From positions 1 to 12,861 of the forward strand of contig JASHXR010000081.1 of NCBI GenBank assembly GCA_030043435.1: a stretch of 12,861 bases of DNA. Direction: 5' to 3'. A program made the translations under genes and the position numbers. This DNA is from Microcaldota archaeon (GTDB lineage: Archaea; Micrarchaeota; Micrarchaeia; Micrarchaeales; CABMGC01). Every line of letters starts with the position of its first letter. Within the stretch, counting starts at the first letter, position 1. Positions 17-5,789 of this stretch are shown here, piece after piece. The notes beneath the pieces are model-generated. The model was not told the DNA's origin. It saw nothing but the letters and a program-made list of their open reading frames with translations, and did not search any database.

Positions 17-1417
17 CTAGAGCGTCCTGAGCGCATCTATGGGCTCCATCTTCGAGGCCTTCCAGGCTGGATATATGCCGGCTATCATGCTTATGACCAC
101 TGCTATGGCAATAGCCTCGGCTATCACAGACAGGGTGAAGACGGGCTCCACAGAAGTAGAGGAGGTCGTGGTAGTGGATGGTGCGGCGCTGGCCGAGGTT
201 GAATAAAATTGCGCCCCTCCACCTGCTGTGGAGACGAAGGCCGTCCCTCCGCCTCCCCTACCTGAGAATCCTCCTGCGTCGCTGCCGAAGGTCCTTGCGC
301 CGGATCCTGCAGTGAAAGAGGTAGGTGCAGCGGCGGTGGGGGTGCTGTGCAGTCCACCTGCTGAAGAGATCGCGTATGAGGCCAGCACTCCGGAGCCGAG
401 GCCGAGAACCCCGCCGAGGAGGCCTATCACCACAGCCTGGAACATGAAGATCAGTAGAACGTCCTTGCTCTCGAACCCTATCGACTTGAAGATGCCTATG
501 TCGTGTATCCGCTCAGACACCGACATCAGCATCACGTTCATTATGCCTATCGCTGCTACGAGAAGCGAGATGCCTGCTATCACTATGTAGAGCGTGGTCG
601 TGCTCGAGGTTATAGACGAGAAGGTGGATGCCAGAGACGCAGTGTTGGTGACTCTTGCGTTGTCTCCGTATACGACCTCAAGGAGGGATGTCAATGCGGT
701 GACGCTGGACGCGCTGTTGGCCTTGACAAGTATCTCGCTGTACGAATCCTTGTCCAGCAGGACCTCTGCGTAGGATAATGAGAAGAAGACGCTGTCGTCC
801 ACGGATATGAGCGAGGTGCTGTGGTCGTCGAGGACTCCGGATATAGGGATGGCAATCTTTGACGAGGAGGAGCCTCCGCCCCCGAATCCGCCACCGCTGC
901 TTCCCGAGACTTCCAAAGTGCCGGTTTCGTTGGCCCCAATCTGCTGCACGTCAGGCTCAGAAGTTGACGAGAATGCTACGCTATAGCCTATGTCTGATGA
1001 TGGCGTCAGGTTATCCGAGTAGAGGGCTCCCTGATATAGGAAGGTGGAGTTGCCCATTATCTCGTCCAGCCCATTCGTACTCACCCCGAGTATCGTCACC
1101 GACTGGTTCTCTCCGTCGACTGTGAGCGTGCCGCTTCCCGTGACTATCGGAGTTACGCTGCTTACGTTAGGCAACGTCTCTATCTCAGCGACATCTGCGC
1201 TCGTCAGTAAGGTCTTGCCGCTGGGCGAGACCAGTATCGCGGTAGGACCGAGCGAACCCAGGGACTTCTGGATGCTGGCGCTTGTGCCTGCCGTCTGGGA
1301 TGTAAGCGCCACTATCGACGCTACCCCTATTATCACCATGATTATGGTGAGCGCGGTCCTTACCTTCTTCTCCTTCAGCTGGATTATGCCAAGCCTGACG
1401 ATATCCCTTACGTCCAT
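17..1417 (-). CDS. MacB/FtsX-type ABC transporter permease
   Basis: Predicted membrane permease of a MacB-like (type VII) ABC system, which usually couples ATP hydrolysis to mechanical work on extracytoplasmic substrates rather than to classical transport. The 466 residues show the family layout: TM1 about 21-43, a large external MacB_PCD-like domain about 44-270, then three C-terminal helices at about 276-298, 320-350 and 427-449. The FtsX signature lies around 300-340 (SERIHDIGIFKSIG) and the protein ends in the usual YPAWKASKMEPIDALR-type tail. Two features are unusual: a Gly/Ser tract at about 171-186 in the external domain, and a long Gly/Ser/Thr/Ala-rich stretch at about 351-425 between TM3 and TM4, where family members normally have a short loop. 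It starts 9 nt after the stop of the secreted-protein gene and is the third gene of the operon. The substrate is unknown. The family call is firm. Confidence 0.9.
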   Translation of the reverse strand: MDVRDIVRLGIIQLKEKKVRTALTIIMVIIGVASIVALTSQTAGTSASIQKSLGSLGPTAILVSPSGKTLLTSADVAEIETLPNVSSVTPIVTGSGTLTVDGENQSVTILGVSTNGLDEIMGNSTFLYQGALYSDNLTPSSDIGYSVAFSSTSEPDVQQIGANETGTLEVSGSSGGGFGGGGSSSSKIAIPISGVLDDHSTSLISVDDSVFFSLSYAEVLLDKDSYSEILVKANSASSVTALTSLLEVVYGDNARVTNTASLASTFSSITSSTTTLYIVIAGISLLVAAIGIMNVMLMSVSERIHDIGIFKSIGFESKDVLLIFMFQAVVIGLLGGVLGLGSGVLASYAISSAGGLHSTPTAAAPTSFTAGSGARTFGSDAGGFSGRGGGGTAFVSTAGGGAQFYSTSASAAPSTTTTSSTSVEPVFTLSVIAEAIAIAVVISMIAGIYPAWKASKMEPIDALRTL

Positions 1418-1426
1418 CTATATGAC

Positions 1427-2758
1427 CTACCTTGGCTTGGGCTTCTCGGCGCGCTTCCGCTTGTTGAGCATCGGCACTCCGACGAATATCACGGCAATGG
1501 CGGCTACGAAGGCGGCTATCGCGATATACAGGCCGGTATCACCGCTGCTGCTTGCGCTGGTGCTCAAAGGCGTACCTCCCGTAGTCGAGCCGGAGAGCCC
1601 GCTTGATCCTGAGCTTGTTATATTGACTGTGACGTTTACAATAGAGCTCAGCGCCTCCCTGAAGCTGCCGAGATAGTCAAGCTTTATAGGTATGGTGTAT
1701 GACCCTGACTTGACTGACGAGTTGGCCATGAGGGTGAGGCTGATGGGCGTAGGCGTCTCTGTGCCTATGCTGCCTATGTAATCTGAGCTCGTGGTGCCGT
1801 AATCAGAGAACCCGCTCGGCAGGATTGCTGTAGCGTTTGCATTCGAGACCCCGCTCGTGCCGGTGTCTGTTATTACAAGCGATATCAGGAAGATGCTACC
1901 AGGGGTGACGCTGGTTGGGGTGATGCTGATGCTTGACGGCACCATGACCACTGTTCCGCTGGAGAGCATTGAGAAGCTGTCCATCGCCTGCGCGAACTCC
2001 GTCCCGTTATACAGCGTTATAGAGACGTTGAACGGGAATATCTGCGATGCGTTCTCGTACATCTCCTCTGTAACGTTCACCGTGGCGTACGGAGCCAGGG
2101 AGCTTATCTCGATTGGCTTGTGGTTTATGAACGTTATCCCGGACTGGCTGCTTGAGATCGAGGTCTGGGCAGAGATGCTGTTAAGCGTAGAGTCGCCAGT
2201 GTTCTTGAAGCTTAGCGTCAGGTTGTTCACCTGCCCTGAGACCAGCACATCGGTAGATAGGTTCACCTGCAGCGGAAAGTCGGAGGGGCAGTTCAGCACG
2301 TCGAGGGTGACGTTCTTGACCTGGCTTGAAGTGTAGATGTTAAGATAGTCGAAGGTTATTGGTATCTCCAGAACTGTGAGCCCTGGAGACGTGTTGTAAT
2401 CGAAGAATATTGGCGCATCGATGACATCAGAGGTATGTGGATTTATGCTGTTCACTGTAATGGTGCTTGGCTGGATTATGTTCTTGTTGCTGAATGAGAG
2501 CTGGACGTCTGACATGCCGGCCCCATACGCGTTACCGTAATCGGTTATGTTTAGCGGTATGAAGTTTGTCAGGCCCCTGCACACAGTGATTGTGTTTGTA
2601 GTGATGTTGAACGTTGGGCTGGGAGGTATCGGAGCGCTGGTATTGGTGCCGCCATAATTGGACGAGTAGCCGTTAGACGCGTAGACTAGCGCAGGTACCA
2701 TCATGGCAAACAGCAGTAACGCTCCGATCTTCCTATACAAATCTTTTTCTATTTTCAT
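1427..2758 (-). CDS. Secreted, membrane-anchored S-layer-like (COG1361-type) protein
   Basis: Predicted surface protein of 443 aa. It has an N-terminal signal peptide (about 1-27, positive residues then a hydrophobic core ending LVYA), an all-beta exterior, and a C-terminal membrane helix (about 409-430) followed by a KRKR-rich cytoplasmic tail. Two internal segments, about 165-260 and 275-380, share the pattern 'long Thr/Ser stretch, N/DTG turn, then Asn-x-Thr', typical of CARDB/COG1361 'S-layer domain' repeats. A Ser/Gly/Thr linker (about 382-407) joins the repeats to the anchor. I count 15 N-x-S/T sequons in the predicted external part, so it may be heavily N-glycosylated. Cys60 and Cys157 are the only external cysteines and could form a disulfide. 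The gene lies one base downstream of the ATPase stop and 9 nt upstream of the permease. Similar triads (ATPase, COG1361 protein, FtsX-type permease) occur in archaea, but their role is not established. I assign no specific function. Confidence 0.8.
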   Translation of the reverse strand: MKIEKDLYRKIGALLLFAMMVPALVYASNGYSSNYGGTNTSAPIPPSPTFNITTNTITVCRGLTNFIPLNITDYGNAYGAGMSDVQLSFSNKNIIQPSTITVNSINPHTSDVIDAPIFFDYNTSPGLTVLEIPITFDYLNIYTSSQVKNVTLDVLNCPSDFPLQVNLSTDVLVSGQVNNLTLSFKNTGDSTLNSISAQTSISSSQSGITFINHKPIEISSLAPYATVNVTEEMYENASQIFPFNVSITLYNGTEFAQAMDSFSMLSSGTVVMVPSSISITPTSVTPGSIFLISLVITDTGTSGVSNANATAILPSGFSDYGTTSSDYIGSIGTETPTPISLTLMANSSVKSGSYTIPIKLDYLGSFREALSSIVNVTVNITSSGSSGLSGSTTGGTPLSTSASSSGDTGLYIAIAAFVAAIAVIFVGVPMLNKRKRAEKPKPR

Positions 2759-2759
2759 T

Positions 2760-3455
2760 TCAATTCCTCTTTTCCTCCTTTTCCAGCCGTCCGTCCTTTA
2801 TGTAGATTACATGGTCGCAATGCCTTGTCAGGTCGGGGTTATGTGTCACCATCACTATCGTGACCTTCTGCTTCTTGCATATCTCCTTGAAGAGCTTTAT
2901 GACCTCATCACCGGCCTTGGTGTCAAGGTTGCCCGTAGGTTCGTCGGCGAGTATCAGAGACGGGTTGTTGACAAGCGCTCGCGCTATCGCGACCCTCTGC
3001 TGTTGCCCGCCGCTGAGCTGCGTTGGCTTCAGATGAAGCCTTTCGCCAAGGCCCAGCCCGATGAGTATCTTGTCTGCCCTGGACCTTCTCTCAGCTTGCG
3101 TCATCGGGTTTACCATCAATGGCAATTCAACGTTCATCTCTGCATCTATGCCATTCACGAGATTGTACGCCTGAAAGATGAACCCAAGCTTCTGGTTCCT
3201 GAACTTGGCAAGCGTGACGCCGTCCATCTTGGAGGTGGGAATCCCGTCTATGTATACCTCGCCTCTCGTTGGTTTGTCTATGGTGCCGAGCATGTGCATC
3301 ATCGTGGATTTGCCGCTGCCCGAAGGGCCTACTATGGCGACAAATTCCCCCTGCTTCAGCGAAAAGGATACGTCAGTCAAGGCATCTACCTCTATTGCCG
3401 ATGACCTATAGACCTTGGAGACTTTGTCAACCTCCACAGAATATACGCCAGTCAC
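2760..3455 (-). CDS. ABC transporter ATP-binding protein (LolD/MacB-type)
   Basis: Cytoplasmic ATPase of the module, 231 aa. All nucleotide-binding motifs are intact: Walker [10 protein letters not shown] (43-51), Q-loop Gln95, signature LSGGQ (147-151), Walker B LILADE (167-172), D-loop NLD (176-178) and H-loop His205. Length and motif spacing match the LolD/MacB/FtsE branch, which pairs with four-TM FtsX-like permeases, here encoded two genes downstream. The start is a GTG at 3453-3455. No in-frame ATG lies between it and the upstream stop, and a start here gives the expected N-terminus before the first beta strand. A TATA-like box on the minus strand lies about 70 nt upstream. The gene overlaps nothing and is followed after one base by the surface-protein gene, so the three are very probably co-transcribed. 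The direction and nature of the transported or remodelled substrate cannot be read from the sequence. Confidence 0.93.
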
Positions 3456-3543: not shown

Positions 3544-3552
3544 TTCGTATTT
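3544..3552 (-). promoter_or_regulatory. Possible regulator half-site
   Basis: TTCGTATTT on the plus strand matches 8 of 9 positions of TTCGTTTTT, the left half of the palindrome that begins 24 nt further right. It lies 13 nt upstream of the ABC-operon TATA box. A single degenerate half-site can occur by chance in AT-rich DNA; its position is the only extra support. Confidence 0.3.
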
Positions 3553-3567
3553 TATGTCAACTTATAG

Positions 3568-3585
3568 TTCGTTTTTAAAAGCGAA
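3568..3585. promoter_or_regulatory. 18-bp near-perfect palindrome, candidate operator
   Basis: TTCGTTTTTAAAAGCGAA: the two 9-nt halves are inverted copies of each other at 8 of 9 positions. The same half-site (AAAARCGAA) recurs at 3628-3636 and twice at 4200-4219, upstream of the wHTH gene. The size and symmetry suit a dimeric winged-helix protein. It lies between the two divergent promoters. That it is an operator for the downstream regulator is inference. Confidence 0.5.
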
Positions 3586-3594
3586 GTGTAGTGT

Positions 3595-3607
3595 CTCTAA
3601 ATTAGAG
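3595..3607. repeat. 13-bp dyad CTCTAAATTAGAG
   Basis: Six-base arms CTCTAA and TTAGAG are exact inverted copies around one central A. It is unrelated in sequence to the AAAARCGAA motif but sits between two of its copies, so it may be a second protein-binding site. It has no U-run after it and the stem is AT-rich, so a terminator is unlikely. Confidence 0.4.
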
Positions 3608-3627
3608 GTTGTGACTGAGCGTGTAAT

Positions 3628-3636
3628 AAAAACGAA
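3628..3636 (+). promoter_or_regulatory. AAAAACGAA half-site upstream of a plus-strand TATA box
   Basis: Exact copy of AAAAACGAA, also found at 4211-4219. Both copies sit about 12-15 nt upstream of a TATA-like box, the place where archaeal activators often bind, next to the BRE. It is followed by GTG, as is the right half of the palindrome (CGAAGTG in both). Confidence 0.4.
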
Positions 3637-3650
3637 GTGATTGGAAATCT

Positions 3651-3660
3651 TTTTATATTT
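3651..3660 (+). promoter_or_regulatory. TATA-like box upstream of the two-TM protein gene
   Basis: TTTTATATTT on the plus strand. A transcript starting about 25 nt downstream would carry a leader of roughly 125-130 nt before the ATG at 3812, long for an archaeon. The alternative box at 3783-3790 would give an almost leaderless message, so which is used is open. Confidence 0.45.
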
Positions 3661-3782
3661 ACGTGGTATTAGAGATTGGCAGTGATGCCGGCGTATCTGC
3701 ATGGATAACATGACCGTAGCCACATTGAACTAAGGCAAGATGGTGGGACAGGCCACGTGACTCTTTTGCGGCTCGCTGGCGT

Positions 3783-3790
3783 TATTATAT
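3783..3790 (+). promoter_or_regulatory. Alternative proximal TATA-like box
   Basis: TATTATAT centred about 26 nt before the ATG at 3812, so a transcript from it would be leaderless or nearly so. It competes with the better box at 3651-3660. The presence of a GGTGG ribosome binding site at 3803-3807 argues for the longer transcript. Confidence 0.35.
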
Positions 3791-3802
3791 GCGAACGAAC
3801 AT

Positions 3803-3807
3803 GGTGG
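3803..3807 (+). promoter_or_regulatory. Ribosome binding site GGTGG fixing the start at 3812
   Basis: GGTGG followed by four A and then ATG. An out-of-frame ATG at 3801 overlaps it and reads into a different frame, so this site supports 3812 as the start of the two-TM protein. Confidence 0.5.
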
Positions 3808-3811
3808 AAAA

Positions 3812-4198
3812 ATGGCTACGAAGGCTGACTCGGGATGGTCGAACATTGAAAAGATAGGACTGGTGGTGCTTGCACTGGGAATCGCGTTCTTGGCTTACTC
3901 GGCATACAACTTTGTCATACCTAGTATACCGACGATAACCACGTCGCATGCGTTTAATGCAAGCGGATATCCAGGAAGCGGGAATTATGTAGGCGGAGGC
4001 GCTGGAGGGGGCGCAGCAAACTACAGCAGGTATGAATCTGATGCAGGAGCTGCGGGCTTCTCTCCGACAGCTTTTGAAGAGACCGGAACGCCATTCATAC
4101 TCAAAATAGGCGACATGCTCTCAGGAGCGCTGCTGGCGGTACTGGGCTTTGTCGTATTCAAGTATGGAGGGCTGAAGAAGGTGTTAAGGGCGAAGTGA
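3812..4198 (+). CDS. Small two-TM protein with glycine-rich external loop
   Basis: I do not recognise a family. The 128-aa protein has a hydrophobic helix at about 14-36, a 55-60-residue middle part, a second helix at about 97-118 and a basic C-terminus (KK, R, K), so both ends should be cytoplasmic and the loop external. The loop contains a Gly/Ala/Asn/Tyr-rich stretch at about 51-72 (GGGAGGGA core) and sequons at Asn49 and Asn70. There are no cysteines and no catalytic motif that I can see. It lies just upstream of the membrane-anchored regulator gene in the same direction, and divergent from the ABC/S-layer operon. A role as a surface or accessory membrane component of that system is plausible from context only. 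The ATG is preceded by GGTGG at good spacing. It looks real because of coherent topology and upstream signals. Confidence 0.75.
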   Translation: MATKADSGWSNIEKIGLVVLALGIAFLAYSAYNFVIPSIPTITTSHAFNASGYPGSGNYVGGGAGGGAANYSRYESDAGAAGFSPTAFEETGTPFILKIGDMLSGALLAVLGFVVFKYGGLKKVLRAK

Positions 4199-4199
4199 C

Positions 4200-4219
4200 A
4201 AAAGCGAATTAAAAACGAA
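4200..4219 (+). promoter_or_regulatory. Tandem AAAARCGAA pair upstream of the regulator gene
   Basis: AAAAGCGAA (4200-4208) and AAAAACGAA (4211-4219) are repeated 11 nt apart, about one helical turn, immediately after the stop of the two-TM gene and about 12 nt before the regulator's TATA-like box. Both 9-mers also occur exactly in the 3456-3811 region. This suggests autoregulation by the encoded winged-helix protein (inference). Confidence 0.5.
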
Positions 4220-4230
4220 ACGGAAGGAAC

Positions 4231-4240
4231 GTTTAATAAT
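4231..4240 (+). promoter_or_regulatory. TATA-like box of the wHTH regulator gene
   Basis: GTTTAATAAT. A transcript start about 25 nt downstream falls near 4260, beyond the upstream ATG at 4239 and just before the ATG at 4272. It therefore supports 4272 as the translation start. Confidence 0.45.
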
Positions 4241-4271: not shown

Positions 4272-5789
4272 ATGAGCAAGCATGGGAGCACTAAGGAGAA
4301 GATATTGAAGCTGATCTCTGGGGGGAAGACGAATCTCAGCAGCATCTCCGAAGAGCTGGATCTGGCGCCTTCCACGGTGAGCAAGCACCTCAATGACCTT
4401 GAGAGCGCAGGGCTGATAGAACCGAAGGACAGGGAGTTTGCCAGGAAGTGGAAGCACTATAGGATAAGCCAGCCAAGCGAGAGCAGGACTGAGAACGAGA
4501 TGATACTTAACAGCAGCCGCCTCTGGAAGAGCTCTGTGGTTGTCGCGGTCATAGCCATCGCCGTGGTGGGCTACCTCTACTTCACGAGCGTGAACTCAGA
4601 GTATATACCGATAAGCATAACCGACCCGCCCTCGGTCCCGGTAGGGACAACGGCGCTATACCTTAACTACTCCTCGCTGAGCGTGCACGTAGTCACAGGC
4701 AACTCGACGGGCTCGTGGATGCAGGTGAACTCAAGCGGCAGGCTCGATCTTCTGAGCCTCATAAACGAGAGCGAGGTGATTGGATCAGCGAAGATACCAA
4801 GCGGCGCCGAGATAGACATGGTGAGATTCAACATAACCTCGGCAAGCATAACAGTCGACAATGCCACCTACGGCGTGAGCCTTGCAGGCACCAGCGTCAG
4901 CGCAAGGGTCGATACGAGCAACAAGCTCAACTCCTCTTCAGGACTGCTCCTTGACTTCTCCCCAGTGGTGACTGAGCAGTATTCGGAGAATTTCACACCT
5001 GTGTTTGTGCTGATCCCTGCGCTCAGCGCAGCGGTCATGCCGTCTCCCGCAGGGCTTAGCGGTCCGCAGATAAGCAACTTTGTGAGCGGACACGCAAGGT
5101 ACCAGATGCAGCCGGGCCTTGGAGCGATGTTCCCTGTGCCCAGCGCAAACCTGACCGTACGTGCCTCTGTGAGCGGCTCAGGCAACTCTACCGCTCTCGC
5201 TGTCTCGCTCGTCAATGATGGCAACAGCAGTATAATGGTATACGGGATGATTGTAGGCGCGCCGCAGCCTGAAGGTAGAAACGCCACAATGAACGTCTCC
5301 GGAAACAGGTATCCGGTGCCACAGCAGGGCCAGGCAGGCGGCCAGTGGGTCACACGGCAGGACAACAACAGCATGTTCATAAACGGCGCGGCCCTAGGCA
5401 TGAACTCCTCTTACGCGAGGAACGGCACCTTCATGATCAAGCTCGCCACCCCAGTGAACAACATAATGATAGAGGGCGGGATACTGGGGGGAAGCGGCGG
5501 CCCGTATGGGCCGCAGTCTGGGCAGTTCGTCTTCATGAGCGGGCAGCCTGGCGCCATGCTTGTGGTATACAGCAATGAGAGCGTGGCGCTGTTGTCTCCA
5601 GGGCAGCAGCAGGTGCCTCCAACGAGCGCGATAGGATATGAGATACCGGCGCACGGCTCTGCCACGCTTGCGTTCTATGGGGAGCTGTTCCCGGGGATGG
5701 CGACGCAGCAGGAAAACTACACAGCACAGAACTACACTGTCTCGATAGTGACGGATGAAGGGATAGCAGTTGCTAACGCGACCTCCTAA
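4272..5789 (+). CDS. Membrane-anchored winged-helix regulator with external DUF4382-like domain
   Basis: Predicted one-component transmembrane transcription factor of 505 aa. Residues 8-66 form an ArsR/MarR-like winged helix: helix-turn-helix about 21-42 (SSISEELDLAPSTVSKHL) and a basic wing about 51-65. A single membrane helix follows at about 87-105, and the remaining 400 residues should be outside. Residues about 111-255 have DUF4382 character: a TDPPS-type first strand, a VTGNSTGSWMQV segment, LDLLSLINES and an IPSGAEIDMVRFNI strand. The C-terminal part (260-505) is Gly/Pro/Asn-rich beta protein without a family I know. There are 20 N-x-S/T sequons after the membrane helix. An in-frame ATG at 4239 would add 11 residues, but the TATA position and the N-terminus favour 4272. 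It overlaps the convergent DUF106 gene by four bases. It probably senses something at the surface and binds DNA beneath the membrane; the target is inferred from the repeated upstream motifs. Confidence 0.82.
   Translation: MSKHGSTKEKILKLISGGKTNLSSISEELDLAPSTVSKHLNDLESAGLIEPKDREFARKWKHYRISQPSESRTENEMILNSSRLWKSSVVVAVIAIAVVGYLYFTSVNSEYIPISITDPPSVPVGTTALYLNYSSLSVHVVTGNSTGSWMQVNSSGRLDLLSLINESEVIGSAKIPSGAEIDMVRFNITSASITVDNATYGVSLAGTSVSARVDTSNKLNSSSGLLLDFSPVVTEQYSENFTPVFVLIPALSAAVMPSPAGLSGPQISNFVSGHARYQMQPGLGAMFPVPSANLTVRASVSGSGNSTALAVSLVNDGNSSIMVYGMIVGAPQPEGRNATMNVSGNRYPVPQQGQAGGQWVTRQDNNSMFINGAALGMNSSYARNGTFMIKLATPVNNIMIEGGILGGSGGPYGPQSGQFVFMSGQPGAMLVVYSNESVALLSPGQQQVPPTSAIGYEIPAHGSATLAFYGELFPGMATQQENYTAQNYTVSIVTDEGIAVANATS

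Follow-up and report, generated by a model that had tools for sequence, protein, structure and literature searches.

Putative operator half-sites of a membrane-anchored winged-helix regulator beside an ABC exporter operon in a Microcaldota archaeon

Genes and sites at the locus

The window, that is, the whole stretch of DNA analysed here (12,861 nucleotides), is the entire contig C29 of the genome G000 of a Microcaldota archaeon, which has 746,368 bases in 125 contigs and is 70.6% complete (G-numbers denote genomes and L-numbers loci). An ABC operon with an ATPase, a NEW3/CARDB-like protein and an FtsX/MacB permease, all on the - strand, is divergent from the gene of a putative regulator. The genes and the putative sites are as follows.

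17..1417, - strand: FtsX/MacB-type permease of the ABC operon
1427..2758, - strand: NEW3/CARDB-like protein encoded in the ABC operon (Pfam matches weak and under the cut-off)
2760..3455, - strand: ABC transporter ATPase (matched best in NCBIfam by LolD and MacB, both under their cut-offs)
3544..3552, - strand: putative half-site AAATACGAA (8/9, sequence match with 1 mismatch), proximal site of the ABC-operon promoter
3568..3576, - strand: putative half-site AAAAACGAA facing the ABC operon, exact copy, set back from the 3544 site by 24 bp, or about two helical turns
3577..3585, + strand: putative half-site AAAAGCGAA, exact copy, making an 18-bp palindrome with 3568-3576
3628..3636, + strand: putative half-site AAAAACGAA of the promoter facing the two-TM gene, exact copy, with BRE-like GGAAA at 3643-3647 and a TATA-like box at 3652-3659
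3812..4198, + strand: two-TM small membrane protein gene, with an orthologue in G004
4200..4219, + strand: tandem AAAAGCGAA-TT-AAAAACGAA of the regulator's own promoter, two exact copies (4200-4208 and 4211-4219) at 11-bp spacing
4275..5789, + strand: regulator gene (ArsR-type winged helix at residues 3-64, TM helix at 82-104, DUF4382-containing outside part)
4368..4406, + strand: recognition helix, residues 32-44, including Ser33 and Lys37

All five exact copies of AAAARCGAA listed in an earlier note on this DNA (starting at 3568, 3577, 3628, 4200 and 4211) were found, as was its 8/9 copy on the - strand at 3544-3552. The five lie within 652 bp. Dinucleotide shuffling gives an expectation of 0.03 copies per window and none of 200 shuffles reached five; with one mismatch allowed the window has 7 matches against 2.27 expected. 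The motif also passed the rarity check that the note had proposed, with 8 copies in the 746,368 bases of the genome, five of them inside these 652 bp of C29, and 4 for the reversed-pattern control. When 8 sites were placed at random 200,000 times, no placement put five of them into 652 bp.

The geometry described earlier was also reproduced. The copies at 3628 and 4211, said to lie 12-15 nt before TATA-like boxes, are 15 and 12 nt away from them, and the 4200/4211 pair, said to be one helical turn apart, has a spacing of 11 bp. In the regulator promoter a BRE-like stretch (4226-4231) is followed by the TATA-like box (4232-4239), and on the - strand the TATA-like box of the ABC operon, read from the sequence at 3531-3524, starts 12 nt downstream of the 3544 half-site. 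A single site likewise precedes the orthologous two-TM gene in G004. The halves of the palindrome at 3568-3585 agree, inverted, at 8/9 positions as the note had it, and can be described as two half-sites back to back, facing opposite promoters. Judging from the sequence, the predicted operator unit is the 9-bp half-site and the 18-bp palindrome is a local back-to-back arrangement of two of them. A different inverted repeat, CTCTAA-A-TTAGAG, with 6-bp arms around one base, is found at 3595-3607 between the 3577 and 3628 sites, where it overlaps a weak TATA-like stretch.

The regulator matches HTH_5 (PF01022) at 2.3e-11, above the Pfam cut-off, which places it among ArsR-type winged-helix proteins, and DUF4382 (PF14321) with 31 bits against a gathering cut-off of 25. 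Translation most likely starts at the ATG at 4275 (MSKHGSTK) and not at 4239, since the TATA-like box at 4232-4239 overlaps the latter ATG and close relatives begin with MSKHG. The AlphaFold model (mean pLDDT 76, pTM 0.58) has a winged helix at 3-64, one TM helix at 82-104 and a beta-rich outside part. Combining a DNA-binding domain with a TM segment in one chain, the protein classes as a one-component transmembrane transcription regulator. A hydrophobic 19-mer follows the HTH in all 109 proteins of at least 250 aa in the window's regulator family (f1). ArsR/SmtB members are soluble dimers with extra dimerisation helices and an inverted-repeat operator; the model has three helices and a wing ahead of the linker and TM helix, and the putative operators of its family are mostly direct repeats. 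In fold comparisons the winged helix resembles CzrA (Foldseek rmsd of ~1.5 over ~60 columns, probability 1.0, though with E of ~0.03-0.05) and also PH1932, and the search with the whole model found nothing at an E of 0.001 or lower. In NCBIfam the winged helix is matched best by MsvR. We do not assign the protein to MsvR, since this match covers only profile positions 12-73 of 236 and scores 32.9 bits against an equivalog cut-off of 220. Several relatives of the regulator carry names of Candidatus Micrarchaeota or Micrarchaeaceae, two are recorded as Marsarchaeota and a partial protein as Methanothrix; a full-protein search of named genome contigs gave a single, short N-terminal match in a bacterium.

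Conservation and geometry of the tandem

The exact tandem pattern AAARCGAAN{2,5}AAARCGAA was scanned in 164 genomes of the order and was found at 43 sites in 38 of them. Thirty-five of these sites belong to the regulator/ABC-exporter module, and 31 of the 35 are located at the promoter of a family regulator or of an ABC operon, counting G007, described below, G076, where the tandem is ~150 nt upstream of the gene, and G157, where only a fragmentary HTH frame is found ahead of the ATPase. The four others (G079, G055, G146 and G149) are ~650 nt ahead of a regulator gene, with two small frames in between in G079, the only one of them read in detail. Five sites are outside the module (G021, G127, G129 twice and G043), and the remaining three are G034:C37, at a contig end, and G139:C20 and G150:C44, which were left out of the assignment. 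One contig, G007:C12 (L208 4922-4971), has the sites and the ABC operon with no regulator gene beside them and no clear TATA after the tandem, and is possibly a natural loss of the regulator.

Among the best-scoring sister-family homologues (at least 59 bits) 11 of 13 have the exact tandem within 100 nt, G130 and G120 being the two without it. An unbiased k-mer comparison retrieved AAAAACGA as the top 8-mer, present in 14/20 ABC-linked upstream regions vs 0/94 upstream regions of other paralogues. Outside the order, 24 exact tandems were found in 137 genomes, 12 of them in G274, and none of nine such sites in eight loci, viewed up to 1.5 kb on either side, was at a module. One locus outside the order (L298) has an ABC-ATPase-like frame ~1.1 kb from its tandem.

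For the geometry we aligned 34 tandem sites, the 35 of the module less G161. Their spacing is 11 bp in 15 and 12 bp in 19 and never 10 or 13, and a TATA-like box begins 10-15 nt past the proximal half-site in 32/34, most often at 13. Information upstream of the tandem is low, which argues that its conservation is not general promoter similarity. As read from these alignments, the conserved operator would consist of half-sites pointing at the promoter, either two in tandem direct repeat with 11-12-bp spacing or just one. PhoB-type boxes are likewise 11-bp direct repeats, in tandem with the same one-turn phasing. The palindrome, whose conservation the earlier note had proposed to check, did not hold up as the conserved operator: the tandem is the usual form, and where inverted half-sites meet elsewhere, in G001 and G005, they are spaced differently. 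Two further features were seen in the family alignment anchored on the proximal half-site, a T run two turns upstream (-21 to -23) and a conserved T at +11, between the half-site and the BRE.

The check for conservation came out in favour of the sites, as the motif is kept before regulator orthologues and, less uniformly, before the ABC operon. Of the 15 divergent ABC promoters examined, eight show an exact AAARCGAA directed towards the operon and no more than 350 nt away (the window, G004:C55, G009, G002, G001, G007, G025 and G005), and the other seven have none. In G004:C55, G009, G002 and G025 the exact site is directly followed by a TATA-like box at 11-14 nt; in G001, G005 and G007 the ABC-side copy is about a turn or more further away. 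The variant AATACGAA, followed by a TATA-like box at 11-14 nt, precedes the ABC operon in the window, G004:C91, G008 and one G003 copy, with a distance of 13-14 nt in the last three. Neither the exact site nor AATACGAA is found within 350 nt of the ABC operon in the other G003 copy, G082, G095 and G106. In G106 a tandem is found further up, ahead of a two-TM-like gene, and this look-alike, recognised by eye, sits between the tandem and the ABC operon. Among 12 co-directional ABC operons, AAARCGAA is absent within 180 nt of the start of the ATPase gene in nine, and in the three others (G034, G156 and G158) it is found at the start codon itself, which is not a promoter position.

Of the earlier proposal that the motif marks operators of the winged-helix regulator and defines a small regulon, the first part is strengthened by the conservation of the sites and their rarity elsewhere, and the second has no sign in its favour beyond the locus itself: one-mismatch tandems are not commoner in the family than the reversed pattern (29 vs 48; 26 vs 53). 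This last control is contaminated, real AAAGCGAAA sites matching the reversed pattern backwards, and we therefore relied on association counts, other promoters and shuffles. Upstream of an XRE-CBS gene on another contig of the same genome (G000:C83:1755, L007 1501-1530) there is a lone AAAAACGAA, with GGAAA and a TATA-like box after it at matching distance; by its site this gene is a candidate further target, and its best relatives in the genus are ~30% identical. At two other loci, L129 (G020:C25:39175) and L181 (G084:C41:1335), AAACCGA or AAACCTA tandem pairs were seen at genes near family regulators, and these genes, with signal-peptide-like starts by eye, are candidates for co-regulation.

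Putative operator words and residue 37 in the regulator family

Paralogues with other recognition helices have different tandem words at the same promoter place, which can be written as AAAXC[G/T]A with X and Y (G or T) as the variable bases. In f1, gathered via the protein and not the motif, 114 of 119 sequences were used (three scored below 50 bits and two had short upstream regions), and a pair was defined as AAAXC[GT]A twice with at least 11/12 fixed positions. Such a tandem pair lies ahead of 83/114 regulator genes, 13 of Lys type and 70 of other types, with a best spacing of 11 bp in 75 and 12 bp in 8, and 31/114 upstream regions have none. The controls gave 4 on the reverse strand, 0 in coding DNA and 1 in one mononucleotide shuffle; in 100 dinucleotide shuffles of the upstream regions the mean was 1.9 pairs and the maximum 5. 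Other promoters of the same stretches have a pair in 7/413, the ABC operon of G007 among the seven. Alignment on the pair puts the TATA peak at an unchanged distance, with a BRE-like stretch in between. Being kept at orthologous promoters and rare at other promoters, the pairs behave as expected of an operator.

Residue 37 in these 83 regulators is Gln in 59, Lys in 13, Glu in 8 and Asp in 1, and was not read by the script in 2. In 81 f1 sequences, Lys37 goes with X = A or G in 13/13 and Gln/Glu37 with X = C in 66/68, the exceptions being G031 and G101, of the same genus, with Gln37 and A-type sites; the sequence with Asp37 (G035) has X = T. The presence of Lys37 against that of the motif in f1 gave 18/20 against 5/89 (Fisher p 3e-14), a descriptive value that treats related sequences as independent and so overstates their independence. 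Mutual information with X is highest at residue 37 among the domain columns, and when normalised by entropy residue 41 stands above it; with Y the highest is residue 33 normalised and residue 59 unnormalised. The f1 tree implies three changes of Lys37 and two of X, fitting two joint gains plus one Lys loss with no change of X, and since there are only 2-3 independent Lys37/X pairs significance is out of reach on this tree.

An out-of-sample test was made in the sister family (f2), with the rule fixed before fetching 54 further genes, which were all the f2 matches listed and unfetched until then; sister-family loci fetched through the motif were left out as circular. A pair was found in 32/54 (reverse strand, 1) and none in the other 22, among which are three Lys sequences. 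X could be scored by script in 29 and was as predicted in 29/29 (2 Lys, 27 Gln/Glu). Three more, with Ala or Met at residue 35 and thus outside the expression used by the script, were read by eye; all have Gln37, two with C and one (L362) with C in the distal and G in the proximal half-site. Altogether the rule was right in 31/32 vs 29/32 for always predicting C, with only two Lys among them. A rule for Y (Ser33 giving G, Ala33 giving T) is not supported, with 21/29 in f2 vs 19/29 for always G; residue 32 (Pro or not) fits Y better, by eye and post hoc. Overall, the base at X tends to go with the amino acid at position 37 of the recognition helix, A or G with Lys and C with Gln/Glu.

Two operator types are found in the genome of the window itself. 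G000 has a second family regulator with Gln37 (G000:C100 near 5516, L132) and an AAACCGA tandem pair, next to the AAARCGA type of C29. In addition, a second regulator clade was seen beside an ABC ATPase gene (G075, G074, G073, G012:C22 and G027) with no AAARCGAA, and an AAACC-type pair is found instead in 4/5 of these loci.

Proposed mechanism, alternatives and known systems

From the observed sites, their conservation, geometry, linkage and co-variation with the regulator we infer binding, a direction of regulation and sensing. The earlier reading of the motif as operator sites of the neighbouring regulator is supported by the sequence comparisons, with binding putative. In the reading that we prefer, with a probability of roughly 80%, the winged-helix domain of the neighbouring regulator, anchored in the membrane, recognises the AAAARCGAA copies as its half-sites. 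Besides its own gene, this protein would control the two-TM gene and the divergent operon of the ABC exporter, as a self-contained signal-response cassette, in a family whose members have their own operators. The regulator would sit in the membrane with its DUF4382-containing part outside, read DNA from there and bind one or two tandem half-sites on one helix face just upstream of BRE/TATA. Tandem binding at this place may bring contact with TFB/TBP and recruitment, and activation by this route is our first choice over repression, held with modest assurance, because of the orientation, the near-fixed TATA distance and the 11-12-bp phasing. A K37Q change would be expected to move the preference from AAAARCGAA towards AAAACCGAA.

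The position of the sites does not in itself prove activation, since MaMsvR, with boxes upstream of TATA, is a proposed repressor (PMC3729527, consulted in part). The same operator and regulator might thus work in the opposite direction, the bound protein blocking access of TFB to the BRE until an outside signal relieves it. We regard this as possible, if the less probable direction. In its favour, the TTCG/CGAA boxes to which MaMsvR binds lie ahead of its own TATA, and blocking of the BRE has been proposed for that protein (PMC3729527); MsvR is the best, far below cut-off, NCBIfam match of the winged helix, and the half-site core CGAA is common to both. Against repression, several nt separate the end of the proximal half-site from the BRE-like stretch, the half-site keeps its direction and nearly its TATA distance as the EarA sites do (PMC10665913), and the archaeal membrane-bound ArnR and ArnR1 are described as activators (PMC6396743).

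The near-fixed distance from BRE/TATA could also be expected if the motif were an upstream promoter element for a general factor, such as a TFB paralogue or a chromatin protein, and not for the local regulator. This is improbable, as the motif is rare at other promoters (the 7/413 given above), its sequence mostly changes with the recognition helix of the regulator, and the two operator types coexist with two paralogues in G000 (C29 and C100). Chance clustering of an A-rich word, for which the 12 scattered tandem matches of G274 could be invoked, is refuted by the conservation and further opposed by the enrichment in window and genome, the placements, the shuffles and the other promoters, leaving it a negligible probability.

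With membrane-anchored control of the cassette as the preferred reading, the locus would belong to a family where a separate tandem operator AAAXC[G/T]A precedes most paralogues, with X mostly following residue 37. We consider it fairly probable that this is a lineage-specific membrane-anchored winged-helix family of Micrarchaeota-type archaea whose operators share one layout, a direct repeat of two AAAXC[G/T]A half-sites of 7-9 bp, spaced 11-12 bp and set at a nearly constant distance from BRE/TATA, and whose recognition obeys a residue-to-base code (Lys37 to A/G, Gln/Glu37 to C, with residue 32 or 33 influencing G or T), the paralogues in these ~1-Mb genomes running separate self-controlled circuits from the membrane. 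Should this hold, the operators of regulators in this uncultured lineage could often be deduced from sequence, and the recognition code would be a test case both for specificity change in winged helices and for the contact of a membrane-tethered factor with the archaeal promoter complex. The cassette also ties a putative sensor, whose outside part contains DUF4382, to a LolD/MacB-like exporter. A search of the open-access literature, with sources available in part, found no paper on operators of Micrarchaeota regulators, and one in which DUF4382 is mentioned along with archaea.

Several known systems share parts of this design, as described in the consulted parts of the sources. Bacterial ToxR/CadC-type regulators are also membrane-tethered winged helices, unlike the regulator studied here in working with the bacterial transcription machinery and in having other sensor domains. 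MsvR of methanogens has a similar winged helix and a site, TTCGTAN4TACGAA, with the CGAA core, and in M. thermautotrophicus msvR is divergent from its target operon; it differs in being a homodimeric, redox-sensitive proposed repressor on an inverted repeat (PMC3729527), and the MsvR model is matched by the window protein in its DNA-binding part only. ArnR and ArnR1 of Sulfolobus acidocaldarius are membrane-bound one-component activators acting at boxes upstream of BRE/TATA, whereas their boxes are inverted repeats, TCGAC-N5-GTCGA, in the flaB promoter, and their targets are type-IV-pili-like surface structures, with no DUF4382 or ABC linkage described in the part consulted (PMC6396743). EarA of Methanococcus and Thermococcales, an activator for which recruitment of TFB is proposed, has short sites, often up to three repeats, 9-11 bp upstream of the BRE; it differs in having the archaellum operon as target and a TACATA-type site (PMC10665913). 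TFB-RF1 of Pyrococcus furiosus differs in its palindrome TCTGAANTTCAGA and is otherwise alike in acting, as an activator, on its own operon and an ABC exporter operon; its site immediately precedes a weak BRE, with conserved spacing (PMC5937170).
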